Source: Verrucomicrobiales bacterium
GTDB taxonomy: Bacteria; Verrucomicrobiota; Verrucomicrobiia; Verrucomicrobiales; DEV007
Assembly (NCBI GenBank): GCA_002698785.1
Contig: PAAG01000046.1
Span: forward strand, 124,001-188,000
Reading direction: 5' to 3'
Length of the DNA: 64,000 nt
Below, piece after piece: positions 7,035-50,816 of the stretch; positions within the stretch are counted from its first letter, which is position 1; every line of letters begins with the position of its first letter. The translations under genes and the position numbers were made by a program. The notes beneath the pieces are model-generated. The model was given only the letters and a program-made list of their open reading frames with translations. It was not told the origin of the DNA and did not search any database.

Positions 7035-8279
7035 TCAGGAAGGTAGAATCGTCTCGCAGGCCTTGGCAGAGAAATCAGACTTACTTGTCTGGCAATGCAG
7101 ACTCCGCACACCAAGCGTAGGTTGCTCGCGTGGTGGCACCACTGGGAGAACAATCTTGATGGCATTGCGGCCATCCTTCGTGTGCTCCGCCCAAATGCGT
7201 CCACCGTGGTAGAATACCGTCAAATAGCAGGCAACGAGGTTTGTTCCCAACTCCTGGGGCTTATCACTTCGAACAAAAAACGGATCGAACAGCCGGTCAT
7301 GATGGGCCGACGGGATGAGCGGTCCATTGTCGATGAACTCAATCGCAACACTCTTGTTGTCGTTCTCGGCTTCGGTAATTTTCACTTCGATTTCTCCGCC
7401 GTCGTGAAGTGATGACTTGGCTTCCTGGAAAAGAAGCCGAGCCATCTGCGAGATTTTCTGGAGGTCGCCAGAAACCTTCGGAGCATTGGCGTCAGCCTCG
7501 ATGGAGACTGAAATGGCTACATCCGATTCGATTGCGATCTCCGAAGCGGCTCTCATAACTTCCTCGATATCGATATCGTGCTCAAGATCCATTCGGCTCG
7601 CCGCCGTTCCTTCGGAAAGGTTCTTCAGCATGGATGTCACTCGTTCAATCTGGCCGCCTACCTCATTGTAATACTCGTTCCAAAAGGTGGAGCTATCCGG
7701 GCTGATACCGAGTTCCTCTTCCAACTGCATTGGAAGCATCTCATGGAAAGTCCTCATTACCGTCAAAGCGTTCCGGAGGTGGTGATTCAAGCCCGACGAA
7801 AGAATCCCGATACTGGCCGCCTTGTCCGCCATCATCAACTGGTTCACGGCAGCAGCCTTCTCAGCAATCAACTGCTCCCGCTCTTTCCGGAGGCAGAAAT
7901 GTTTCAACGCACGAATCAACCGGTGCTCCATTTCTTCAGGATCCCACGGCTTTGACAGGTATGAATACAACAACCCATCATTCAATGCATCGACAGCCAC
8001 CCCGAAGTCGGCAAACGCCGTAACGAGAAATCGAAGAGGCTCCGGATCGTAGTCCCGCACTCGCTTCAAGAAATCGATTCCCGACTCGTTCGGCATCTTT
8101 TTGTCACTTAGCACCAGACCGATTCTATGATGGTTGGCCTGGAAAATCTCCATTCCTTGTTCTGGACCTGTCGCCGTGTATATCGGAGCGATATCTTCGA
8201 AAATCGCTTCGAAATATTTGAGAGACTTCTCCTCGTCATCAACGTAGAGAATCCCGTAATCAGTGAACTGCTGTTCCAT
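7035..8279 (-). CDS. Response regulator receiver fused to a degenerate histidine-kinase module (PhcR/PhcQ-like)
   Basis: A 414-residue protein. Residues 5-125 are a receiver with acidic pair D14/D15 in YVDDEE, phosphoacceptor D59 (LSDKKMP), T87 and K110 (LSKPWDP). A coiled linker leads to a kinase-like region whose H-box reads GLNHHLRNAL: H166 is in the catalytic position, but the usual acid after it is His. The ATP-binding part has no recognisable N-box asparagine, and its G boxes are altered (DNGPLIP, ELGTNLVAC). I infer a weak kinase or pseudokinase. Receiver-plus-kinase order is the unusual layout reported for PhcR-type regulators of Ralstonia. Its start overlaps the sensor kinase gene by 20 bp, indicating translational coupling. 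Confidence 0.85.
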   Translation of the reverse strand: MEQQFTDYGILYVDDEEKSLKYFEAIFEDIAPIYTATGPEQGMEIFQANHHRIGLVLSDKKMPNESGIDFLKRVRDYDPEPLRFLVTAFADFGVAVDALNDGLLYSYLSKPWDPEEMEHRLIRALKHFCLRKEREQLIAEKAAAVNQLMMADKAASIGILSSGLNHHLRNALTVMRTFHEMLPMQLEEELGISPDSSTFWNEYYNEVGGQIERVTSMLKNLSEGTAASRMDLEHDIDIEEVMRAASEIAIESDVAISVSIEADANAPKVSGDLQKISQMARLLFQEAKSSLHDGGEIEVKITEAENDNKSVAIEFIDNGPLIPSAHHDRLFDPFFVRSDKPQELGTNLVACYLTVFYHGGRIWAEHTKDGRNAIKIVLPVVPPREQPTLGVRSLHCQTSKSDFSAKACETILPS

Positions 8280-9750
8280 TTTTTGCTCCTGTTATGGTTG
8301 GTATATGATGTTGACTTGCTTCCCTGCGGACATGTTTGGGGAAAGTGATGACAAAACTCGTAAACTCCATCAGCTCCGACTGGATACGGATCGTACCACC
8401 GTGTGCCTCGACAATTCGGAAACAAATGCTCAGGCCGAGTCCCGTTCCTTCACCAACTTCCTTCGTAGTGAAAAACGGATCAAAAATTCGATTTCTGATC
8501 TCATTGGGAATTCCAGGGCCCGAGTCACGAATCACGATTTCAATTTGATTTCCATCGTCGTAAGCACTGATATCGATAAGCTTCCGCTTGTTGCCCTCTG
8601 CCGCTTCCATGGCCTGAATCGCATTTTGAATCAGGTTAATGAAAACCTGCGTCACCTGGTTTTTGACTCCCTCAATCCGGAGCGAAGCAGGAACTTCGAT
8701 AGAAAGTGTGGTCTGACTGTCCGTGATCTCCTTACCCAGCATTCTACAGGCAACATCGATTGCTTCTCGAATGGCGAATTCTATGCGGACTTCACTACTC
8801 TTGTGAGAGAACTCGCGAAGCTCGCTGACAATATCCTTCATGCGATCGATACTGTCCTGAATGTCATCGATCGCCTCCATAACGTATGGATTCGTGTCGC
8901 CCTTCCGCACGAGCCGGCGAAGCAAAAATAGCGCCTGATTTGAATAATTGAGCGGATTCCCTATCTCGTGGATCACCCCGGCACTCAATTCACCAAGAGA
9001 GACCATCTTTTCAGATTGGATCAGTTGTCCCTCGGTCTCCTTCAGTTCTTTCAACGCCTCCTGCAGCTCAAGCCTCTGCGAACGCAACTTCATCTTCTGA
9101 AACCTGGAGCGATCTCGAAGAATGTATTCGTTCACTCGAAACCGAAAGTGAACAAAACACCCGGCAACGATCACAATCCCTTTCGCGAGAATGAAAATAC
9201 TGTTGTTAATAAACCACGCGGCAAGGCGATCATCCATCCCACTAAGCGCGTGGGGAGCGGCCGCTGCAAAAAACATCACGAAAATACAAATCGTCGAGAT
9301 CAAAGCCTCTCGATAGGTCCAGTGGAAGACGAATCCCACTGCAACGATCACCAGTGTTAGCCCTGCATAATACGGAGTCCCCGGATCACCCGAGATAAAA
9401 ACCATCAACGAGATGAAAAATGCCGGAATCAACGGCAAAGCGACCGTGAATATTCGATAATTCGTACGCCCCCATTGTGTCGTACTCGCCCAGTAAGCAA
9501 AAGCCGCGGCCAAAGTACAAATCCCCCGCAAAATAACGAAGGTCGTAAAATGATCCGGATACGCAAAATAGTCGAGAATCGCGTACGACGGCACCATGGT
9601 AACGATCAAAATCGTGACCAGGCGCTGGTTCTTGAGCGTCGCGTGACGCTCCTCCGCAAACATGAGCTTCCAGCCGAACTCTGAGAGTCCGTCAGGAGGC
9701 TTGGACCAGTTCTTCCAAAAATTCAGGAATGTCCGGATGAGCGGCATCAC
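8260..9750 (-). CDS. Six-TM sensor histidine kinase (PhcS/CqsS-like layout)
   Basis: A 496-residue kinase. Six hydrophobic segments (about residues 44-63, 70-90, 99-120, 126-143, 148-166 and 178-200) have very short loops and no periplasmic domain, a layout used by sensors of small hydrophobic signals such as CqsS, LqsS and PhcS. A coiled coil (215-250) leads to the H-box LGELSAGVIHEIGNPLNY with H261, followed by NLIQNAIQAM (N-box), DSGPGIP (G1), FDPFFTTK (F) and GTGLGLS (G2). All catalytic motifs are intact. It lies between the methyltransferase-receiver fusion (55 bp upstream) and the receiver-kinase with which it overlaps, so all three appear to be one operon. Confidence 0.9.
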   Translation of the reverse strand: MMPLIRTFLNFWKNWSKPPDGLSEFGWKLMFAEERHATLKNQRLVTILIVTMVPSYAILDYFAYPDHFTTFVILRGICTLAAAFAYWASTTQWGRTNYRIFTVALPLIPAFFISLMVFISGDPGTPYYAGLTLVIVAVGFVFHWTYREALISTICIFVMFFAAAAPHALSGMDDRLAAWFINNSIFILAKGIVIVAGCFVHFRFRVNEYILRDRSRFQKMKLRSQRLELQEALKELKETEGQLIQSEKMVSLGELSAGVIHEIGNPLNYSNQALFLLRRLVRKGDTNPYVMEAIDDIQDSIDRMKDIVSELREFSHKSSEVRIEFAIREAIDVACRMLGKEITDSQTTLSIEVPASLRIEGVKNQVTQVFINLIQNAIQAMEAAEGNKRKLIDISAYDDGNQIEIVIRDSGPGIPNEIRNRIFDPFFTTKEVGEGTGLGLSICFRIVEAHGGTIRIQSELMEFTSFVITFPKHVRREASQHHIPTITGAKNGTAVH

Positions 9751-9805
9751 GAAATGATACCATAAAATACCGGAAAATCCTAAATTTTATGAAAATTATA
9801 TTGTC

Positions 9806-11761
9806 TCAGTTTGTTACCAGAGCGTAGACCTCGACTCCACCCTCATCGGTTTCCAGTTCCACACGATGGTCTGGAAGTGCCGTTTGGATGAGATCGCCGA
9901 AGTCTTCCTCACTTCGATAGATCAACTCCCAGTCCATCACCAGGGTCATCCACGCAATGATAGGGTTATTTGTCGTGTAATTACTCAGCACCAACTTTCC
10001 ACCCGGTCGCAAAAGCCCGAAGAGATACTGCGACACCTTGGTGACCAATCGGTCAGAAAGGTAGTCGAACAAACCTGCACAATAGACCAGGTCGTATTTC
10101 GAACCAGGCCTATAGCCCTCCCCCTTAACTTGGCGCGAGGCGTTTGCCAGATCGATTACAGAACTTTGGTGAAGTTCAACATTCACCCCTTCAGGAAAAG
10201 CCCCGTAGGTTCGATATTGCCGCTGAGCTTCCTCAAGCGTTTCGGGAGAAAAGTCCACGAGAACAAAATCTACGTCCTTTCCTTGATCGGGAGATTCAAT
10301 GTACCGCTGCACTTCATAGGCAACCCCACTGGCCATGCTGAGGATCTCGGCCTTGTGTCCTTCACTACTCGCTTTCCCCACCGACGCGACAATTTCCCGA
10401 TGCAACAGATTTACGCGGTTCCGATAGGCTGCCGCCGCTCCACACCCGAGAATCCAGGAATTAAAAACACGGTCATAGACCGAATAACCTTCAAGAGGAT
10501 TTCCGAGAATCTGCCCCAGCATTCCATAGTCCCCCGGCACACCAATTGGTTTCTCAACCACTCGTGAAAGGAAAGGAGAACTTAATGCAAGGGGATACAG
10601 ATGTTTTCTCGCATACTCTTTCGCGAGACTGGAATGCTCACCACGTAGAAGTGGTTTCGCAGCCGCTTCAAATCTCTGCATCGCACTCCAGAAAAGAGGG
10701 GCATAACGCTCCGAGGTGGTCTTCACGAAATCAGCATCGTCTCGGAATTCTTGCACCGGCTCTCCATTGTCATCTTTTGACAGCTCATATGCCGTGCCAT
10801 CCTGTTCCACCACCTGCAACACACCGACCAATTCGTGAACGGCAATTCGAAAATCAGCGGGTAGCATCTGCTGTTCCTTCTCGAGCCACCCCATTCTCTC
10901 ATTGCCAGACAAATTGAAACCATCAGTATTTGCGCCTTCATCACCCCTCTCCGAGATACTCCTTTCCACGACTCCCCACAATTCGGGGACCAAGATTTCG
11001 ACTTCGCTCCGTTCGTCGGACAGACTTTCGAGATGCCTGACAATACCGTGACTGGATTCAACCTGAATTCGACCAAACCGAAACGAAATTCCGTTCAGAC
11101 TGTCACCGGCACTAATCTCTGAAGAATTCGACATCTCCACGACAGCCGATCTTGTCCCAAATCGCACGATCTCCCCTTCTACTAGCTCACCACTATCCGT
11201 AACGGCAAAAAACTGACGAGAAATGTGCGCTGACTTCGACTGCCGCACAGGGGGCGTGGTGCGTGCGGACTCCGAAGGAGCTACCTCGCTTCGAGTTCCT
11301 GCCACCAATTCCTCGATCATCGCCTTCACCGCCACCGGGCTGATCGGCTTCGCAACGAAACGATTGGCACCCAGGGCAAGAGATTTTTCAGCAAGGTCAG
11401 GATCTCCAAAACCTGTAAGAAAAAGAACCGGCACATCTTGAGAAACAGCCCTTATCTCTTGAAGGATCTCGATGCCATTTCGCACTGGCATCATGTAGTC
11501 GAGAACAATGCAATCGACATCCTGAAAGTCGTAAGCCCCATACTCCGGTATTCCAAATTCCTGCAGAACTCGGGCGCTACTACCTTCCAGCGCCTTCTCG
11601 ATCATTCGACCGACGACCGGATCGTCATCAATCACGAGAACACGTTCTGTGGTCGTATTCTTTCCAACACTCTCTATTTCACTCGGAAATTGAGAACTCG
11701 ACCGGCTGTTAGACACAAAATCTCTCCCAGCCCCACCAGTTACCTTGTGGTCTTTTTTCAT
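9806..11761 (-). CDS. Receiver / PilZ-like / PhcB-type methyltransferase fusion
   Basis: A 651-residue soluble protein with three parts. Residues 40-155 are a receiver (D46/D47 in VIDDDP, phosphoacceptor D88 in VLDYMMP, T116, K138). Residues about 180-262 resemble a PilZ beta-barrel, but the RxxxR and DxSxxG c-di-GMP motifs are not evident. Residues about 300-651 match proteins annotated as 3-hydroxypalmitate methyl ester biosynthesis (PhcB-like) methyltransferases: the linker KPIGVPGDYGML, then NRVNLLH, a SAM loop at EILSMASGVAYEV (472-484) and FVLVDFSP (499-506). PhcB makes the hydroxy-fatty-acid methyl ester signal of Ralstonia. Coupling of the enzyme to a receiver suggests that phosphorylation controls it; this is inference. 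Confidence 0.85.
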   Translation of the reverse strand: MKKDHKVTGGAGRDFVSNSRSSSQFPSEIESVGKNTTTERVLVIDDDPVVGRMIEKALEGSSARVLQEFGIPEYGAYDFQDVDCIVLDYMMPVRNGIEILQEIRAVSQDVPVLFLTGFGDPDLAEKSLALGANRFVAKPISPVAVKAMIEELVAGTRSEVAPSESARTTPPVRQSKSAHISRQFFAVTDSGELVEGEIVRFGTRSAVVEMSNSSEISAGDSLNGISFRFGRIQVESSHGIVRHLESLSDERSEVEILVPELWGVVERSISERGDEGANTDGFNLSGNERMGWLEKEQQMLPADFRIAVHELVGVLQVVEQDGTAYELSKDDNGEPVQEFRDDADFVKTTSERYAPLFWSAMQRFEAAAKPLLRGEHSSLAKEYARKHLYPLALSSPFLSRVVEKPIGVPGDYGMLGQILGNPLEGYSVYDRVFNSWILGCGAAAAYRNRVNLLHREIVASVGKASSEGHKAEILSMASGVAYEVQRYIESPDQGKDVDFVLVDFSPETLEEAQRQYRTYGAFPEGVNVELHQSSVIDLANASRQVKGEGYRPGSKYDLVYCAGLFDYLSDRLVTKVSQYLFGLLRPGGKLVLSNYTTNNPIIAWMTLVMDWELIYRSEEDFGDLIQTALPDHRVELETDEGGVEVYALVTN

Positions 11762-11780
11762 CTCTGCGGCACAAATTTTA

Positions 11781-11801
11781 GAAACGTTTCAAATTTGAAA
11801 C
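11781..11801. promoter_or_regulatory. Palindromic candidate operator upstream of the methyltransferase-receiver gene
   Basis: Twenty bases upstream of the start codon at 11761 lie two overlapping perfect palindromes: GAAACGTTTC (11781-11790) and GTTTCAAATTTGAAAC (11786-11801). Together they give three GAAAC/GTTTC half sites. A fourth GAAAC followed by AAATT occurs at 11888-11897. On the coding strand, a TAAAAT that could be a -10 element directly follows the palindromes. This position suits a repressor or autoregulator; the protein that binds is unknown. Confidence 0.5.
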
Positions 11802-29120: not shown

Positions 29121-31283
29121 ATGGACGCCCCAACGGTTCCATATCGGCAGACCTATTTTCGCAACACTCTTTCGATCTCGGCAGGAGTGGTGGGTATTCT
29201 TGCTTGCTCAGTTCTCATTGGCTGGATAATCCGCTCAGTGGCACTCACGCAGATAATGCCGTCATTTGCTCCAATGCAGTTCAACACTGCATTGATGTTT
29301 CTCACCTCCAGCGTCAGTGCGCTTTTGGCATTTCAGGGAAAGCACCGCTTCGCACTGATCGGATGTGTCCTCGTAGTCAGTTTCTCTTCAGTTACCGCTC
29401 TGCAATATCCGCTGGGAGTTTCGTTCGGAATCGACACGCTTTTCGTCGAGCCTTTCACGACAACTCGCACGTCTCATCCCGGTAGAATGGCTCCTAATAC
29501 GGCGATTGCATTTGTATTGACCGGGTTTGCAATTGCTGGCTTTTCTTATCGGCCCCGCTGGACTACCCTACCCGTCGCAGCAGCCACGCTCGCTTTTTCC
29601 CTCGGTCTTCTTGCACTCTATGGTTATCTGGCGGCAGCGGAAAACGCATACGGCTGGGGTGATTTCACAAGAATGGCCCTGCATACCGCGACAGGGTTTA
29701 TTATCCTGAGTAGCACTTTATTGGCCGAGGGATGGCGGAGAACTCGCGACATTCCCCCACCCAGACCTCTCCCCCACTGGCTTTCCTTCGTGGCATTGAC
29801 GCTCGCCGTGACTGTCGCTTTATGCGCCTGGAACTCGATCGTAATTCTCCAGCAGAAAAGACAAGACCGCGAAATGCGAACTCTTGCGTTCGTCGTAAAT
29901 CAGAAAGTAAGCCTGGCTATCAATGGAAACTTCCACGCAATGGTGCGAATGGCAGACCGCTTTGAAGGCGGGATGCGAGGCGATGGATGGATAGATGATT
30001 CCGTGAATTACCTGACGGACATCCGTGGTCTCTTTGCGATAGCTTACTTCAAAGAGAGCACAACGAAACCGTTCATCATTGCCCTGGACCAGTCGCGCGA
30101 GCACGAAGTTGCCGGATACAGCAACATTAAAGCACTCAAAAGCATTGCCGAAAGGGCTTCGATTTTTCAAGATCAGGAATGGCGTGAAGATGCTTTTCTT
30201 ATATCCATTCGGATACGCGATCCCCACTCTCAGAAAGTCGACGGCTACCTCGTCGGTTTTTTTGATACCATTCCTTTCTTCGAACATTCGATCAAAAACA
30301 AAGATCACAGAAAACGAGTACAAATATCCATTGCTGGCATCCCTCTTTACACGGGAAGCAAGTTTGCCAGTTCGAAAAAAGCATCGGGCGGCTTCGCCAC
30401 GGAAAGCGATCCAGATCATCCATGGAGCGTCACGGCGACAGGATCACAGGACTTGTCAATCACAGAGGTTGGCGTCCGCCTCTCTACCATTATGCTTTTT
30501 GGAGGATTGCTACTTTCCGGGCTAATCGCCTGGATCGCGAAACTTGGAATTGATACCTACAACCTCCAACTCCACCAAACAGACGAGGAGATACGCGAAG
30601 CCTACGAAGAGTTGGAGACCCTACTATTCGTTGTCTCCCACGACCTGAAAGAGCCTGTGCGGTCGATCAATTCGTTCACAGCCCTTTTGGAAGACGATCT
30701 GGGTGAAACACTGAATGACGACGACCGGGAATTGCTCCATCGCATCATCGGTGGCGCGGAGAGGCTCGATTCCCTTCTGTCCGATGTAGGCACGATTTCG
30801 CGGGCGTATCGGATGGATAAGTCATCACCTTCGGGCCCTCTGAATGAAATTGTGCAGGAGCAGATAGAAGCCCTCAACGAACAACTCCAGGATACCGGAT
30901 CGAAATTGACAGTTTCTCACGATCTTCCCGCAATCGAAGTGGAGAAAGCATGGACCGGAAGAGCGTTGAACAATCTGCTCTCTAACGCGGTAAAATTCGC
31001 ACAGCCAGGAATGCCTGCGGAAATCACAATCGAACCCTACATTGGTCCGGAAGGAAAAGGGATCGTTGTGAAAGACCGTGGAATTGGCCTACCTGAGAAA
31101 GCAGACGATCGCCTCTTCGATCTTTTCCGGCGTGGAGTTGGAAAAAATGTGGAGGGAACTGGTGTGGGATTGGCAATCGTGAAAAAAGTGGCTCAACACC
31201 ACGGTGGTAAGGCGTGGTTCAAAAATCGCTCTGGCGGTGGAGCAGAATTCTACGTCACTCTATCTCCAGCGAAGAAGAGGTAG
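29121..31283 (+). CDS. Membrane sensor histidine kinase, paralogue 1
   Basis: A 720-residue kinase. The N-terminal 240 residues hold about seven hydrophobic segments, with conserved blocks PMQFNTAL, QYPLGVSFGID and TSHPGRMAPNTAIAF that recur in the next gene. Residues about 245-445 form an extracytoplasmic domain resembling CHASE-type sensors, closed by a TM segment at 451-473. The kinase has H-box VVSHDLKEPVRSI (H507), N-box NNLLSNAVKFA, DRGIGLP and GTGVGLAIV, of the type seen in phytochrome-like kinases. The tandem paralogue and Rcp1-like regulator follow in the same direction. Confidence 0.92.
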   Translation: MDAPTVPYRQTYFRNTLSISAGVVGILACSVLIGWIIRSVALTQIMPSFAPMQFNTALMFLTSSVSALLAFQGKHRFALIGCVLVVSFSSVTALQYPLGVSFGIDTLFVEPFTTTRTSHPGRMAPNTAIAFVLTGFAIAGFSYRPRWTTLPVAAATLAFSLGLLALYGYLAAAENAYGWGDFTRMALHTATGFIILSSTLLAEGWRRTRDIPPPRPLPHWLSFVALTLAVTVALCAWNSIVILQQKRQDREMRTLAFVVNQKVSLAINGNFHAMVRMADRFEGGMRGDGWIDDSVNYLTDIRGLFAIAYFKESTTKPFIIALDQSREHEVAGYSNIKALKSIAERASIFQDQEWREDAFLISIRIRDPHSQKVDGYLVGFFDTIPFFEHSIKNKDHRKRVQISIAGIPLYTGSKFASSKKASGGFATESDPDHPWSVTATGSQDLSITEVGVRLSTIMLFGGLLLSGLIAWIAKLGIDTYNLQLHQTDEEIREAYEELETLLFVVSHDLKEPVRSINSFTALLEDDLGETLNDDDRELLHRIIGGAERLDSLLSDVGTISRAYRMDKSSPSGPLNEIVQEQIEALNEQLQDTGSKLTVSHDLPAIEVEKAWTGRALNNLLSNAVKFAQPGMPAEITIEPYIGPEGKGIVVKDRGIGLPEKADDRLFDLFRRGVGKNVEGTGVGLAIVKKVAQHHGGKAWFKNRSGGGAEFYVTLSPAKKR

Positions 31284-31452
31284 AACACTCGCCGGGTGCC
31301 ACTCCTCAGTCCCCCCTTAGCTTCAGTGCAATTTGCCAGAAAATTGAGCAAAAGACCGCTAATCCCGGCAGCTCTTACAGAGTTCTTGAATATTATTTAT
31401 TGCAATTTACCATAATTTCCATACCTTTAACCTGTCGCAAAGTCACTCGACA

Positions 31453-33612
31453 ATGCCTACGGTCCCATTGAATCTTAGAAAAACGCGCCTGCTTGATCGC
31501 TTGGTCATGCCAGCAATTGCCCTTGTCGTTCTGCTAGGGGTGATTGTTATCGTCGGCTGGATCACGAAATCTCCGCTGCTGATGCAGATCGCTCCTTCGT
31601 GGGTGCCGATGCAATTCAACACTGCCCTTCTTTTCGTAGCCACCGGAAGCGCCGCAATCCTCTTGTTCTTGAGAAAATACCGGATTGCTATCCCCTTGGC
31701 CATACTGGTAGCTCTACTTGCCAGCCTCACCCTGTGCCAATACGCTTTTGGAATCTCTTTCGGCATCGATGAGGCACTATTCACCGCTCATACAACGGTG
31801 AAAACCTCTCACCCGGGCCGGATGGCTCCTAACACTGCCATTTCCTTTATTCTATGCGCGGTGATGATCATGGCATATCGCCAGTCCTCTGCAAACAGGG
31901 TTCTCGTCGTGTTCCTTTCCACATGCGTATTTTGCCTCGCGGCGCTTGCGATCTATGGCTATATCACGGGGACGGAAAGCACCTACGGTTGGGGAAACTA
32001 CACTCGCATGGCAATCCACACAGCCACGGGTTTCGTAGTGCTGGGAGGATCCTTCCTCATCGACAGTTGGTATGCAGAGCGCACAGTTTCTGAAAAGCAC
32101 AACCGTATCCCAGCATGGCTCTCGTTAGTGTCGACTTTGGTGGCTTTAACTATAGGGCTCAGCATCTGGAATACTGTTTCCTCACTCGAAAATCGAAGTG
32201 CTCTGGAAGAGACAAAGTTACGAGGCAAATCCATCCATACGCAATTACACTCTGTCTTAGATTCCGTCCGCCTTTCTTTAAAGCAAATGGTGCGCCGGTA
32301 TGAAGGAGGGATACGAGGTCCAAACTGGGTTGAGGATGCTGAAGAGCATATAAGAACTACACCGGGGTTGTTTGCGATCACATTCCTTAGAGACGATGAC
32401 TCGACCCGCCGAATCAACCTGAAGAACGAAGGGCTGCGTCATCTAGTCGAGGAATGGGAGACGGGAGAGTCTCCTTCCAAGCTAACTTTCGCCGATCTGG
32501 AAGAGTCCGGATCTTCGTTTCACTATTTCGTTATTTCATTGCGTATCGAAAACTCTGAGCCATTCAAGGACAGCGGATACCTGGAAGCGTTTTTTGATGC
32601 ACGTGAGTTCTTCTCTCATGCGCTCCACCCCATTGTCGAAGATGAGAGATACGTAATTTACGATACCAACGGGGCGACAATCATTTCGACTATAGGTAAC
32701 GAGAAAGAATCAAAGGGGCTCGAGAGCATTCATATCGAAGACACGTATCATGGCTGGTACGGTGAAGTTCTCGAGATTGAGCGGGCCAGCCTGACGGCTC
32801 TCGGTGTCACGCTCTCCAGTATGGCTTTGGTCGCTACATTTCTGATTGGAGGCCTCGTTTTCTGGAGCACTACTTTTGCCATCAATAGTTACAATCGCGA
32901 TCAAGAGAGATCCGATTCGGAACTGTTTAGGACGAACACTGAACTCGAAACCCTGCTTCACACAATCTCTCACGACCTTCGAGAACCTATCCGAACGGTA
33001 AATTCCTTTTCCAGCCTCCTCGAAGAAGAATGCAGAGACTGTTTGAACGAAGACTCTCGCCACGTTCTTGATCGATTAAAAGGAGGGGCAGCCCGACTGG
33101 AGGATCTCCTCAGTGATATCGCTACTATATCCCGCCTACACCATTTGGAGATGAGCCAGGAGAAAACCTCCTTGAAGAGCCTTGTCGAAAGTCAACTCAA
33201 GCATCTCCACAAAGAAATCGAGTCCACAGGAGCAAAAATAGAAGTCTCGGAAAAACTCCCCTCGATCTTAGTAGAGAAAAAGTCGGCACAACAAGCTGTG
33301 CACCACCTCATCGGGAATGCCCTGAAATTCTCCAAGAATGGCTCCCCTCCCGAGATTTCAATTCACCCCTACCGAGACAAGAAACGGAAAGGCATCGTCG
33401 TAAAAGATAGAGGCATCGGGATCCAGCCTCCCATGGACGAAAGACTCTTTCAGCTGTTTCGCCGTGGCGTAGGAAGAGAAATCGACGGTACTGGCCTTGG
33501 GCTCGCTATTGTGAGAAAAGTAGCGGAAAAACATGGAGGTGAAGTCTGGTTTCGCAATCGAACTGGTGGAGGAACAGCATTCTACCTTGTGTTGACTTCA
33601 CCTAAACCTTAG
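31453..33612 (+). CDS. Membrane sensor histidine kinase, paralogue 2
   Basis: A 719-residue kinase with the same domain order and near-equal length as the gene before it. Shared landmarks are PMQFNTALLF, QYAFGISFGID, TSHPGRMAPNTAISF and YGYITGTESTYGWG in the membrane part, then an extracytoplasmic sensor domain, a TM segment, the H-box TISHDLREPIRTV, HLIGNALKFS, DRGIGIQ and GTGLGLAIV. The sensor domains differ more than the membrane and kinase parts, so each may respond to a different input. It ends 13 bp before the response regulator gene and is probably co-transcribed with it. Confidence 0.92.
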   Translation: MPTVPLNLRKTRLLDRLVMPAIALVVLLGVIVIVGWITKSPLLMQIAPSWVPMQFNTALLFVATGSAAILLFLRKYRIAIPLAILVALLASLTLCQYAFGISFGIDEALFTAHTTVKTSHPGRMAPNTAISFILCAVMIMAYRQSSANRVLVVFLSTCVFCLAALAIYGYITGTESTYGWGNYTRMAIHTATGFVVLGGSFLIDSWYAERTVSEKHNRIPAWLSLVSTLVALTIGLSIWNTVSSLENRSALEETKLRGKSIHTQLHSVLDSVRLSLKQMVRRYEGGIRGPNWVEDAEEHIRTTPGLFAITFLRDDDSTRRINLKNEGLRHLVEEWETGESPSKLTFADLEESGSSFHYFVISLRIENSEPFKDSGYLEAFFDAREFFSHALHPIVEDERYVIYDTNGATIISTIGNEKESKGLESIHIEDTYHGWYGEVLEIERASLTALGVTLSSMALVATFLIGGLVFWSTTFAINSYNRDQERSDSELFRTNTELETLLHTISHDLREPIRTVNSFSSLLEEECRDCLNEDSRHVLDRLKGGAARLEDLLSDIATISRLHHLEMSQEKTSLKSLVESQLKHLHKEIESTGAKIEVSEKLPSILVEKKSAQQAVHHLIGNALKFSKNGSPPEISIHPYRDKKRKGIVVKDRGIGIQPPMDERLFQLFRRGVGREIDGTGLGLAIVRKVAEKHGGEVWFRNRTGGGTAFYLVLTSPKP

Positions 33613-48106: not shown

Positions 48107-48690
48107 GTCCCGCAGCAACCTCGAGCGAAAACTGGCTCGAAAACCGGGAATCCCTCGAACAATGGAACGAGGCGTATCGACGCGTCGAAGCATACTTCCT
48201 CGCTTTGCATGTAAACAATAAGCTGTTGCTCAGCTCACTCGTGCTGAAGATCCTTGGCCGTGCCAATCTCCGGCACGAACAGGAGACACATCGCCTTCCG
48301 GTGGAAATCGCGGCAGAAGAAACCGACAAACTGATCGTTTCCTGGTTCCGGGATGTATTGGGCGACGAAGCTCCGGAACCACTCGACAGAATCTCTGCTC
48401 GTGGACGCCTCGCTTTGCTCCTCGTAGAATCTCGGGTTCCGTGGCAACAACTGTTCCTCTCGGAAGAGCCCGTCCCTGAACAATTCAAAGAGGCGATACG
48501 AGAAGCCTACCTTCGAGCTGACCCGGATTTCAGCTTTGTTGAAATGCGCCCACGTCCGATCGATTTGGGAATTGTCCATGCCGCCAACAGAACTCTCGAA
48601 AGTATGGGACGTTTTCGTACAGCCGTGCAATGGGCTCTCTGGATCGCATTCGGCGCGCTACTCTCACTCATTTTCTTCCTGACCCGCTAA
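48082..48690 (+). CDS. C-terminally anchored membrane protein between opgG and opgH
   Basis: Starts at ATG 48082, inside the end of opgG (25-bp overlap); 202 residues. The N-terminal 175 residues are mostly helical and charged (RESLEQWNEAYRRVEAYFLAL, LPVEIAAEETDKLIVSWF). Residues about 180-200 form a single C-terminal TM segment with FLTR at the end, so the bulk should be cytoplasmic. opgGH operons of Proteobacteria have no such gene. I infer a role with the OpgH synthase, perhaps as a regulator or assembly partner. Confidence 0.8.
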   Translation: MVISVEPLSPAATSSENWLENRESLEQWNEAYRRVEAYFLALHVNNKLLLSSLVLKILGRANLRHEQETHRLPVEIAAEETDKLIVSWFRDVLGDEAPEPLDRISARGRLALLLVESRVPWQQLFLSEEPVPEQFKEAIREAYLRADPDFSFVEMRPRPIDLGIVHAANRTLESMGRFRTAVQWALWIAFGALLSLIFFLTR

Positions 48691-48704
48691 CCATTTTTTC
48701 CTCC

Positions 48705-50816
48705 ATGAATGCCAACGACTCTGGAACGAGGGCGAGAGCTCTCGAGACCGACTCCACCCTGCAGACATTTCTTTTCTTTTCAGTCGTCCTGGGTATTACC
48801 GGGCTCGGTTCCTACCTGATGGCTGACTATCTGTGGCACTTGGGGTGGACTTTTTCATCCGCCATCATGTGGTTCCTGTTTACGATCCTTTTCGGGTACC
48901 TGGCTTTTGGCTTTTCCCACGCCGCCTTTGGCTTCTTCCTGCGCCGGTTCTCCCCAACCGCCGCAAAGATGCCCGACTCCATTGGAGAGCCAGAAAGTGA
49001 CACTGTTCCGCGAGTCGCGATTATTATTCCGGTATACAATGAACCCGTAGAGCGTGTCTTTGCAGGACTGGGCGCGATCTTCGACTCCGTCATGCGAGAA
49101 CCGGAGCACGACGTTTTTGACTTCTTCATTCTCTCCGATTCCAACCAGCCCGAGCAGTGGGTCGAGGAAGAAGCCGCATGGATGAACTTCCTCCAAAGTC
49201 GCAATGCACAGGACCGGGTCTTTTATCGTCGACGTCCCAGCAATGTGAACAAGAAAAGCGGGAACGTCTCCGATTTCTGCCGCACATGGGGTGACCACTA
49301 TCGCTACATGATTGTCCTCGACGCGGACAGTATTGTGACGGGCAGCACCCTGACAGAACTCTATCGGCGCATGGAGTCTCACCCCCGAGTGGCACTCATC
49401 CAAACCGCTCCTGGACTCGTCGGGGGAGAATCTCTCTTCGGCCGCATGCAGCAGTTCGCAAATCGTCTCTATGGTCCTGTCTTTATGGAAGGCCTTGCTT
49501 TCTGGCAACAATGCGGAGGAAACTTCTGGGGACACAATGCCATCATTCGCCTTCGTCCGTTTATCGAACACTGCGATCTTCCGGAGTTACCGGGTCGAAA
49601 GCCTTTCGGCGGTCATATTCTCTCCCACGACTTCGTTGAGGCAGGCCTCTTACGACGGGCAGGCTGGGAAGTCTGGATTGCTCAGGATCTCGAAGGCAGC
49701 TACGAAGAAGGCCCACAGGGAATCATCGAATCTGCCCAACGGGACAGACGCTGGTGTCAGGGCAACCTCCAACATGCCATGCTTCTTTTCGCACGTGAGC
49801 TGCGCGGGAAAACACGCATCCACTTGGCTAACGGTATTCTCGGATACGTTGCATCCCCCATCTGGCTTCTCTTCATGTCTGTTGCTTTTTATCAGGCATT
49901 CGCTCATGGCGACATGTTTTACGCTTCCATTGCCACAACTGCCCAGGGGCTGTTCTTACTTGTCCTGACATTGACACTTCTTTTCATGCCGAAGTTCCTT
50001 TGTCTTGTCGACCTTGCTTTTGATAAAGAACGTCGCAAAGGATTTGGGGGAATGCTCAACGCCTTCACCAGTTCTTTGATCGAAACCTTTTTCAGTGCTC
50101 TCCTCGCTCCGGTTCTGATGCTGTTCCACACAAAGTTCGTCATCTGGAATATACTTGGGAAGACCGTAGGCTGGGCCGCACAACGCCGCGGAGCGCAGGG
50201 CACGTCATGGGACGAAGCGATCACCACGCACGGCTTTCACACTCTCCTCGGAATTGGCGCCGGTATCGTGGCATTCATGGTCAATCCGATTCTGTTCTGG
50301 TGGTTGTCTCCCGTTCTAACTGGGCTGTGGTTGTCGATTCCTATTTCGGTATGGACCAGTCGAAAAGACATCGGGATGACTGCCAAGCGTGAACAACTCT
50401 TCCTCACGCCCGAGGAACAGAATCCACCGGTAGAAGTCACACAGGCGTTGACCTTCAAGACAAAACGTCGCCACCACTTCGGCAGTATTACCGATGCGGT
50501 CCTCGACCCATACCTGAACGCTGTACATGTTTCGCTGCTGAGAAGAGCGCGCCGCCGACTGGTAACCGGGCAGAAATACTATGGTCGAGAGGTTGCCTCC
50601 TGTGTTCCGAAAACAGGCTCTTCGGACGAACGCCGTTTTCTCGCGGAACGCCTTCTTCGCGACGGCCCGGAGTCACTCAGTCAGGAGGAAACCATGGACA
50701 TCCTTTCCGACATCGACAACATGCTTTGGATGCACCGGGAGGCATGGCTGCGCCCCAATGCCGACCTGTCAACCCGCTGGCAGAAAGCGATCAGTGTCGT
50801 ATCTGCAGCGGTGTAA
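48705..50816 (+). CDS. opgH: Glucans biosynthesis glucosyltransferase OpgH
   Basis: Taken from ATG 48705 (MNANDSG, 703 aa), 14 bp after the preceding stop. Two N-terminal TM segments flank a GT2 domain with AIIIPVYNEPVERVFAG, IVLDADSIV (DxD), QQCGGNFWGHNAIIR, GHILSHDFVEAGLLRRAGWEVW and the QxxRW motif as QRDRRWCQG. Several TM segments follow (about residues 375-560). It polymerises UDP-glucose into the beta-1,2 glucan backbone and exports it. Shorter than E. coli OpgH, mainly at the N-terminus, where the long cytoplasmic extension is missing. Confidence 0.96.
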   Translation: MNANDSGTRARALETDSTLQTFLFFSVVLGITGLGSYLMADYLWHLGWTFSSAIMWFLFTILFGYLAFGFSHAAFGFFLRRFSPTAAKMPDSIGEPESDTVPRVAIIIPVYNEPVERVFAGLGAIFDSVMREPEHDVFDFFILSDSNQPEQWVEEEAAWMNFLQSRNAQDRVFYRRRPSNVNKKSGNVSDFCRTWGDHYRYMIVLDADSIVTGSTLTELYRRMESHPRVALIQTAPGLVGGESLFGRMQQFANRLYGPVFMEGLAFWQQCGGNFWGHNAIIRLRPFIEHCDLPELPGRKPFGGHILSHDFVEAGLLRRAGWEVWIAQDLEGSYEEGPQGIIESAQRDRRWCQGNLQHAMLLFARELRGKTRIHLANGILGYVASPIWLLFMSVAFYQAFAHGDMFYASIATTAQGLFLLVLTLTLLFMPKFLCLVDLAFDKERRKGFGGMLNAFTSSLIETFFSALLAPVLMLFHTKFVIWNILGKTVGWAAQRRGAQGTSWDEAITTHGFHTLLGIGAGIVAFMVNPILFWWLSPVLTGLWLSIPISVWTSRKDIGMTAKREQLFLTPEEQNPPVEVTQALTFKTKRRHHFGSITDAVLDPYLNAVHVSLLRRARRRLVTGQKYYGREVASCVPKTGSSDERRFLAERLLRDGPESLSQEETMDILSDIDNMLWMHREAWLRPNADLSTRWQKAISVVSAAV

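Follow-up and report, generated by a model that had tools for sequence, protein, structure and literature searches.

A candidate Phc-type module with a receiver domain fused to its PhcB-like synthase in a Verrucomicrobiales bacterium

Results

Three co-directional genes make up the locus

We analysed a group of three genes in a 64,000-nucleotide stretch of a Verrucomicrobiales genome (contig PAAG01000046.1, positions 124,001 to 188,000 of the forward strand; hereafter the window) that resembles the phcBSRQ operon described for Ralstonia (PMC8578825, PMC10653808). The genes encode a PhcB-like methyltransferase carrying an N-terminal receiver domain (P0003), a PhcS-like membrane sensor histidine kinase (P0002) and a receiver joined to a degenerate histidine kinase domain (P0001). 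They run head to tail in the order P0003, P0002, P0001, all on the minus strand, with a gap of 55 bp between the first two (9751-9805) and an overlap of 20 bp between the last two (8260-8279), just as a first-pass annotation of this DNA had described them. The features of the locus, with the evidence used for each, are:

9806..11761, minus strand: P0003, receiver plus nearly full-length PhcB-like methyltransferase, 651 aa, ATG start (open reading frame (ORF), Pfam, profiles)
11315..11641, minus strand: receiver of P0003, residues 41-149, with phospho-acceptor D88, T116 and K138 intact (Pfam, alignment)
10964..11221, minus strand: PhcB-type N-terminal beta domain of P0003, residues 181-266, without a Pfam family (AlphaFold2 secondary structure, PhcB profile)
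9809..10864, minus strand: helical part and class I S-adenosylmethionine (SAM) methyltransferase part of P0003, residues 300-651 (Pfam, BLAST, profile, fold match)
10061..10084, minus strand: PhcB-type signature YCAGLFDY of P0003, residues 560-567 (YC.GL.DY columns in the alignment)
8260..9750, minus strand: P0002, PhcS-like membrane sensor histidine kinase, 496 aa, GTG start (ORF, profiles, AlphaFold model)
9136..9639, minus strand: six-helix membrane sensor domain of P0002, about residues 38-205 (AlphaFold2 model, PhcS membrane profile)
8332..9030, minus strand: HisKA and HATPase of P0002, residues 241-473, with H261 and the ATP boxes intact (Pfam, alignment)
7035..8279, minus strand: P0001, PhcQ-type receiver plus degenerate histidine kinase domain, 414 aa, ATG start (ORF, Pfam, hhalign)
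7917..8252, minus strand: receiver of P0001, residues 10-121, with D59, T87 and K110 intact (Pfam, alignment)
7140..7844, minus strand: pseudokinase-like part of P0001, residues 146-380 (N-box replacement in the alignment)
11787..11800, no strand: palindrome TTTCAAATTTGAAA, 5' of P0003, not conserved (window sequence compared with loci L022-L037)

NCBIfam returned nothing above its cut-offs for the three proteins (25 best matches per protein). Across the 16 receiver-synthase loci that we found in the window's genus, the sensor gene adjoins the synthase gene in 13 and the third gene is present in 14, and since the order is kept at most of these loci, the three-gene arrangement is not a product of chance. 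The first-pass annotation had further counted a palindromic promoter in favour of a single unit. The palindrome TTTCAAATTTGAAA is present, yet L022-L037, the 16 other loci, contain no exact copy, so that conservation gives the promoter no support; its best partial matches within 350 bases upstream of 15 synthase genes have two mismatches at L026, three at L022 and L032 and at least four at the others, the upstream region of L029 being mostly N.

P0003 carries a PhcB-type methyltransferase

Pfam recognised in P0003 the receiver (41-149) and generic methyltransferase families. A profile of 17 betaproteobacterial PhcB proteins had P0003 as its sole match at E<=10 in the 7.0 Mb genome (6.3e-54, with only profile positions 177-460 aligned in this search), and when applied to the ORFs of the locus it matched residues 190-649 of P0003 to positions 17-460 of 463 at 189-190 bits. 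BLAST gave nearly the same extent, aligning residues 191-647 with residues 18-458 of a Paraburkholderia PhcB (29% identity; ORF offset 36), and at some other betaproteobacterial loci the best BLAST piece spans just residues 303-649. A reciprocal profile, built almost wholly from the window's phylum (16/17 rows), returned phcB as the top match in 5/5 betaproteobacterial genomes. Seven related methyltransferases, chosen from search matches, scored 62-100 bits against the PhcB profile, compared with 190 bits for P0003. The agreement of profiles in both directions and the better score than these outgroup enzymes bear out the PhcB-type methyltransferase proposed at first pass; the homology proposed for residues 300-651 also holds, but the match begins near residue 190 and not at 300.

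The columns YC.GL.DY are invariant in 33/33 PhcB-like rows of our alignment and occur in 0/7 outgroup methyltransferases, and the SAM and signature residues are intact in all 33 PhcB-like rows. In a second synthase tree, from which four plasmid outgroups and five genus rows were omitted, the PhcB-like rows separated from L164-L166 with support of 100/100, a split that received 88/31 when the long plasmid rows were included. In the AlphaFold model of P0003 (mean predicted local distance difference test score (pLDDT) 82, predicted template modelling score (pTM) 0.78) a receiver is followed by the beta domain (181-266), a helical region and a methyltransferase fold. Its top match among solved folds was PDB 3ocj, a Bordetella parapertussis protein of unknown function (Z 20.1 over 267 residues within 177-651, root-mean-square deviation 3.7, 18% identity, the receiver lying outside the match), and a comparison of the PhcB profile with PDB by sequence found no convincing relative (best E 0.14).

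P0002 resembles PhcS including its membrane domain

Pfam assigned HisKA and HATPase to P0002. Residues 39-472 align with PhcS at about 30% identity, the membrane part included, and a profile restricted to the membrane domain of PhcS had P0002 as its sole match at E<=10 in the genome (3.4e-15). In the AlphaFold model (mean pLDDT 82, pTM 0.53) six membrane-type helices, assigned to the membrane by eye from the sequence, precede a long coiled coil and the kinase. The six helices of the model and the unique match of the membrane profile agree with the six-transmembrane-helix (six-TM) PhcS-type kinase of the first-pass annotation. We then ran the membrane profile on 430 ORFs of at least 250 aa, drawn from the window and from 36 further loci selected for the presence of PhcB (37 in all). 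It matched 33 ORFs, each of them the kinase adjoining the PhcB gene; the four loci without a match (L025, L034, L036, L040) have no such kinase neighbour. The kinase boxes, comprising the phosphorylatable histidine (H261 in P0002) and the N and G boxes, are intact in the sequences of 25/25 PhcS-type rows. A structure search with P0002 matched kinase parts among its best 50 matches.

The receiver is fused to the synthase across the genus

PhcB is encoded in 15/33 genomes of the window's genus, at 16 loci, and the N-terminal receiver is read through in all of them except L033, where the synthase gene is cut by the contig end. The receiver-synthase fusion is therefore real and conserved across the genus loci. 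Our receiver alignment took in 15 of 17 receiver-synthase genes; all 14 rows extending to the phospho-acceptor D88 keep it, T116 and K138 are kept in 15/15, and one acidic receiver residue is lost at L036. Judged by these residues, the receiver of P0003 looks like a working one. Outside the genus, among the other 21 PhcB-encoding genomes of our phylum sample (see below), the receiver part was matched only in G050 (L037), and by BLAST the PhcB of G053 (L040) has an N-terminal extension without a receiver.

In a tree that used 13 of the 17 receiver-synthase genes, the synthase receivers form one clade (90/81), apart from the receivers of hybrid sensors and of PhcQ and PhcR. Some hybrid-sensor receivers match at about 30% identity, and we considered a relocation of the receiver from such a sensor; this was rejected, as the receiver tree places the two apart. 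L037 and the receiver-less L040 join the receiver-synthases in a single clade (96/98), which suggests that the fusion probably arose once; given this shared clade, one fusion followed by loss in L040 is the simplest history, two fusions being possible. At L031 (G024:C39:3069-4922) the receiver-synthase frame contains two in-frame TAA stops, its first open stretch corresponding to residues 29-617 of P0003, possibly through a frameshift or decay. The receiver-synthases at L025:6074-8095 and L034:8498-10507 stand without an adjoining sensor, and both genomes encode the sensor elsewhere.

The third gene combines features of PhcQ and PhcR

In P0001 Pfam recognised a receiver (10-121), HATPase and a sub-threshold HisKA. 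D59, T87 and K110 are invariant in 19/19 receivers of this type. The kinase domain, by contrast, is consistently degenerate: the N-box Asn is replaced by Glu or Asp in 16/16 P0001-like rows from the same phylum and kept in 3/3 PhcR rows, none of the former 16 has Glu just after the phospho-His, and 3/16 have lost this His. The P0001 receiver falls within the PhcQ/PhcR receiver clade (97/91), and hhalign aligned P0001 with the PhcQ receiver and its following helix over 162 columns (33% identity, E 1e-35). A PhcQ profile had six matches in the genome, P0001 being the best (5.7e-32; next 2.1e-14). With PhcR, P0001 aligned over 347 columns at 22% identity.

The C-terminal part of betaproteobacterial PhcQ aligned with P0001 over 75 columns (E 3e-7), and the C-terminal parts of PhcQ-like proteins from the window's phylum over 243 columns (E 1.5e-19), which gives partial support to the idea that the C-terminus of PhcQ may be a decayed kinase. 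We read P0001 as a putative receiver-pseudokinase related to both PhcQ and PhcR. Of the PhcR-like receiver-kinase that the first-pass annotation had seen here, the architecture stands; a plain PhcR it is not, because the receiver is of the PhcQ type and the kinase domain is consistently degenerate, the ATP/Mg motifs being lost in 16/16 aligned relatives from the same phylum.

Synthase and sensor co-occur across the phylum

We surveyed 387 genomes drawn evenly from the phylum, using a PhcB threshold of E<=1e-40, and found PhcB in 22. A PhcB profile made of betaproteobacterial proteins only, run on 29 genomes, gave the same 22 as positive and G356 and six others as negative. With a mixed sensor profile the PhcS-type membrane domain was detected in 22/22 PhcB genomes and in 1/365 others, G356 (Fisher p 6e-35, kinship ignored). 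Since 13 of the 22 PhcB genomes had contributed rows to this profile, the survey was repeated with betaproteobacterial PhcS rows only, which detected the sensor in 21/22 PhcB genomes (G363 was missed) and again in 1/365 others (G356). G356 alone among the sampled genomes combines a hybrid sensor of the PhcS type with receiver genes (L228:7067-10686) in the absence of PhcB. In Pseudomonadota, PhcB was found in 7/398 genomes (the centre genome included), and all seven fall into the betaproteobacterial clade (100/100). On the strength of the profile matches and the phylum-wide co-occurrence, we conclude that P0003 and P0002 almost certainly constitute a Phc-like synthase-sensor module. The first-pass annotation had placed a Phc system outside Proteobacteria at this locus; that placement agrees with the trees and kinship labels but is too narrow, because PhcB-PhcS modules without the fusion occur across the phylum.

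The Betaproteobacteria may hold one branch of a wider family

For comparison with characterised systems, orthologs from Cupriavidus, Paraburkholderia, Oxalobacteraceae and a few other Betaproteobacteria stand in for Ralstonia solanacearum. A plasmid search had yielded a Paraburkholderia operon that carries two receiver genes besides a PhcB-like and a PhcS-like gene, and a scan of named genomes gave at least 581 relatives, of which the best 80, all Betaproteobacteria by title, were kept. We examined 21 of these 80 loci and found PhcB-, PhcS- and PhcQ-like genes in a row in 21/21; between the last two lies a full PhcR-like gene in 18/21, a short receiver gene at L051 and none at L067 and L111. 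Arg22 is invariant in betaproteobacterial PhcB and matches the position described in PMC6989110, and the histidine at position 233 of Cupriavidus PhcS, likewise invariant, agrees with H230 of the Ralstonia protein (PMC11960443). Because these two positions match, we took the loci as orthologs of the Ralstonia phcBSRQ operon.

The window shares with the Phc systems of Ralstonia, Cupriavidus and Paraburkholderia the order of synthase, sensor and receiver genes, near full-length PhcB and PhcS homology, and a last gene with a PhcQ-type receiver and a PhcR-like receiver-kinase architecture. It differs from them in that its PhcB carries an N-terminal receiver, a single last gene with a degenerate kinase domain replaces PhcR and PhcQ, identities are about 29-30%, and trees and kinship labels place it outside Proteobacteria. 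The order phcB-phcS-phcR-phcQ is thus not found here; the window has phcB, with a receiver added, phcS and one phcQ/phcR-like gene. Other loci of the same phylum (for example L041 and L152) encode PhcB, a fused double-kinase sensor (TM domain, first histidine kinase (HK1), receiver, second histidine kinase (HK2)) and a PhcQ-like protein. These hybrid-sensor modules share with the window PhcB, the sensor domain and the PhcQ-type receiver, whereas their PhcB is without a receiver (except at L037) and P0002 corresponds only to the membrane part and second kinase of their sensor. Such double-kinase hybrids follow PhcB at L037, L039, L041, L144, L145, L147, L150, L152, L153 and L155-L158, and at L151 the two halves of the sensor are separate genes. 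LvrB of Leptospira (PDB 8vc9), a hybrid response regulator that came up among the structural matches of the P0002 kinase, likewise joins a receiver to a histidine kinase, the kinase domain of P0001 being degenerate.

The trees, rooted by midpoint and by distant outgroups, sampled the window's phylum and Pseudomonadota. In the kinase tree P0002 and betaproteobacterial PhcS group with HK2 (96/95), and HK1 forms a clade with the L151 sensor kinase (100/98). A tree of the membrane part and last kinase splits (100/99) into betaproteobacterial PhcS with six hybrids and L151 on one side and the window's set on the other, and in the PhcB trees the betaproteobacterial rows nest with six PhcBs of the phylum (98/96; 97/95 in the second tree). 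This pattern suggests that the Ralstonia system may be one branch of a wider family.

Sensor pairs without a synthase

The sensor is found in 29/33 genomes of the genus, among them 15/15 of those with PhcB. We fetched 19 sensor loci lying away from PhcB, 14 in PhcB-free genomes (nine of these genomes with completeness of 90% or more and contamination of 5% or less) and five in PhcB genomes (L183, L185, L186, L194, L195). No PhcB-like ORF was found in these 19 loci. A P0001-like gene follows the sensor in 16/19, and the contig or stretch ends there in the other three. Four of the loci occupy the window's chromosomal site with the sensor and the P0001-like gene, phcB missing (L180:5625-10300, L186:5930-10356, L191:6055-10341 and L192:254-4541): the sensor adjoins the sulfatase gene that flanks PhcB in the window, and aldolase or FtsY lies opposite. 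The L186 genome holds PhcB elsewhere. Counting all loci with the flanks of this site, nine have phcB (the window, L022, L023, L024, L026-L029 and L033) and seven are without it (L178, L180, L182, L186, L187, L191 and L192), to which L193 can be added on a weaker aldolase match.

In the sensor tree L191 and L192 nest with the PhcB-holding L028, L029 and L033 (100/100), and a second clade (100/99) takes in 14 further loci that lack phcB. Because the phcB-less loci fall into two separate clades, either repeated loss or repeated gain of the synthase is implied, the sensor pair being retained. A sister family has two genomes in which a 319-aa methyltransferase adjoins the pair, this enzyme, a non-hybrid PhcS-type sensor and a receiver-pseudokinase lying in one row (L224:3360-7224, L225:4506-8347); at L223 and L227 of that family the pair has no adjoining methyltransferase. 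The genomes of L224 and L225 also hold a hybrid-sensor PhcB module.

Neighbouring genes and other features of the window

Aldolase, FtsY and sulfatase genes, common to 7-8 loci, were considered as output genes and rejected, as they look like a mark of position and not of function. A sulfotransferase-family gene (window:6309-6986) comes after P0001, and a relative of it follows the third gene in 6/35 genus loci (the window included), PhcB being present or not. Elsewhere, the window encodes tandem histidine kinases of 720 and 719 aa that match largely the same NCBIfam kinases (29121-33612) and an MdoH-type glucan glucosyltransferase (48630-50816; 808 bits against a cut-off of 419 bits).

Discussion

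We propose that the locus encodes a Phc-type module whose signal synthase is itself a response regulator, a reading to which we assign a probability of roughly 0.55. In this proposal, the product, ligand, phosphotransfer, feedback sign and output of which we infer, the methyltransferase of P0003 would make a small lipophilic compound that, by analogy with PhcB, is most likely a hydroxy-fatty-acid methyl ester; this compound would build up as cells become dense or confined. P0002 would sense it inside the membrane through its six-helix domain, autophosphorylate at H261 and phosphorylate the receiver of P0003 at D88, altering the rate of signal synthesis in a hard-wired feedback loop. P0002 would also phosphorylate the receiver of P0001 at D59, and P0001 would probably relay the signal, either as an allosteric partner or as a phosphate sink. 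We consider it reasonably probable that a lipophilic methyl-ester signal is sensed by P0002, and give slightly better than even odds to phosphorylation of the P0003 receiver by P0002 as a control of synthesis.

Signal synthesis under receiver control has a parallel in the RpfF/RpfC diffusible signal factor (DSF) system, where the synthase is of another enzyme class and the contact is made between separate proteins. That system, from Xanthomonas, shares with the arrangement proposed here a receiver domain controlling a signal synthase, as cited in PMC6989110. According to the same source, phcQ mutants have reduced signal, and its authors suggest, citing RpfC, that the PhcQ receiver may interact with PhcB. 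The receiver-PhcB fusion fits this suggestion. A 2023 survey of PhcX-holding Proteobacteria describes the phc cluster as largely confined to Betaproteobacteria (PMC10653808). Our searches of the open-access literature found no report linking homologs of the 3-hydroxypalmitic acid methyl ester (3-OH PAME) system to Verrucomicrobiota, no methyltransferase autoinducer synthase fused to a receiver domain, and no account of the distribution of PhcS/PhcB orthologs over phyla; in PMC12503165 PhcB appears as an entry in a list.

Several observations weigh against the proposal. The identity of P0003 to PhcB, about 29%, is too low to infer the substrate, and short related methyltransferases reach 76-94 bits against P0003 in BLAST. 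The equivalent of PhcB R22 is Glu195 in P0003, in a column that varies within the genus; the R22C exchange lowers the signal in Ralstonia, and the passage reporting it calls R22 conserved in Ralstonia, Cupriavidus and Paraburkholderia only (PMC6989110). Three receiver-synthase loci (L025, L034, L036) have no adjoining sensor. The pair of sensor and P0001-like gene is kept in 14/18 PhcB-free genomes of the genus, so the ligand of the sensor need not come from PhcB, and within the genus the association of synthase and sensor is not significant (15/15 vs 14/18, p 0.11). The sensor pair may thus eavesdrop, or its ligand may not be the product of PhcB. No conserved output gene was seen near the locus among the neighbours compared, PhcA not having been looked for, and a 2026 paper reports that PhcQ binds PhcA and keeps it stable, a route other than PhcB (PMC13320629).

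A rival explanation is an ordinary two-component system in which P0002 senses a cue from the membrane or the environment, phosphorylation of the response regulator P0003 controls its methylation of a lipid or metabolite other than the ligand of P0002, and the kinship with PhcB reflects ancestry and not function. The resemblance of the receiver-enzyme fusion to a classical response regulator speaks for this, as do the 14 PhcB-free genomes with the pair, the two sister-family genomes with a different methyltransferase beside it and the low identity to PhcB. We nevertheless consider it the less probable explanation, at little more than one chance in four: every PhcB genome of the phylum sample and of the genus has a PhcS-type sensor, the conserved partner is the membrane domain itself and not the kinase alone, and where PhcB is receiver-less in sensor-holding genomes it cannot be a response-regulator output. 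A degenerating quorum system, in which the synthase is optional or leaving, many species of the genus eavesdrop on the signals of their neighbours and the fused receiver may stop synthesis, would explain the sensor pairs without phcB, including the four bordered on either side by the same genes as in the window, and their distribution over two sensor clades. Yet all catalytic, SAM and phosphorylation residues that we checked in the window are intact, and with nine site-flank loci keeping phcB and seven (plus L193) without it, the gene is far from lost; we regard this explanation as improbable. That the methyltransferase and two-component genes adjoin by chance without a functional link is contradicted by synteny, the gene order being kept across the genus and beyond, and by co-occurrence in the phylum, which makes it highly implausible.

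If the proposed Phc-type module with a response-regulator synthase is correct, the phylum may harbour a quorum-sensing family of talkers and eavesdroppers: in the former the cognate receptor would phosphorylate the synthase, and sister species would drop the synthase and keep the listener pair. The betaproteobacterial PhcB and PhcS being nested in wider diversity, the system of the plant pathogen may moreover be a late borrowing. We offer this combined picture tentatively, as somewhat less than an even bet. Phc-type synthase-sensor pairs extend well beyond Betaproteobacteria, and close relatives that differ in the presence of the synthase are suited to studies of eavesdropping. Because PhcB here carries a fused receiver whose phosphorylation site is intact, the question of how PhcQ relates to signal synthesis (PMC6989110) becomes testable with one purified protein, and the locus could show how bacteria outside Proteobacteria talk or eavesdrop.

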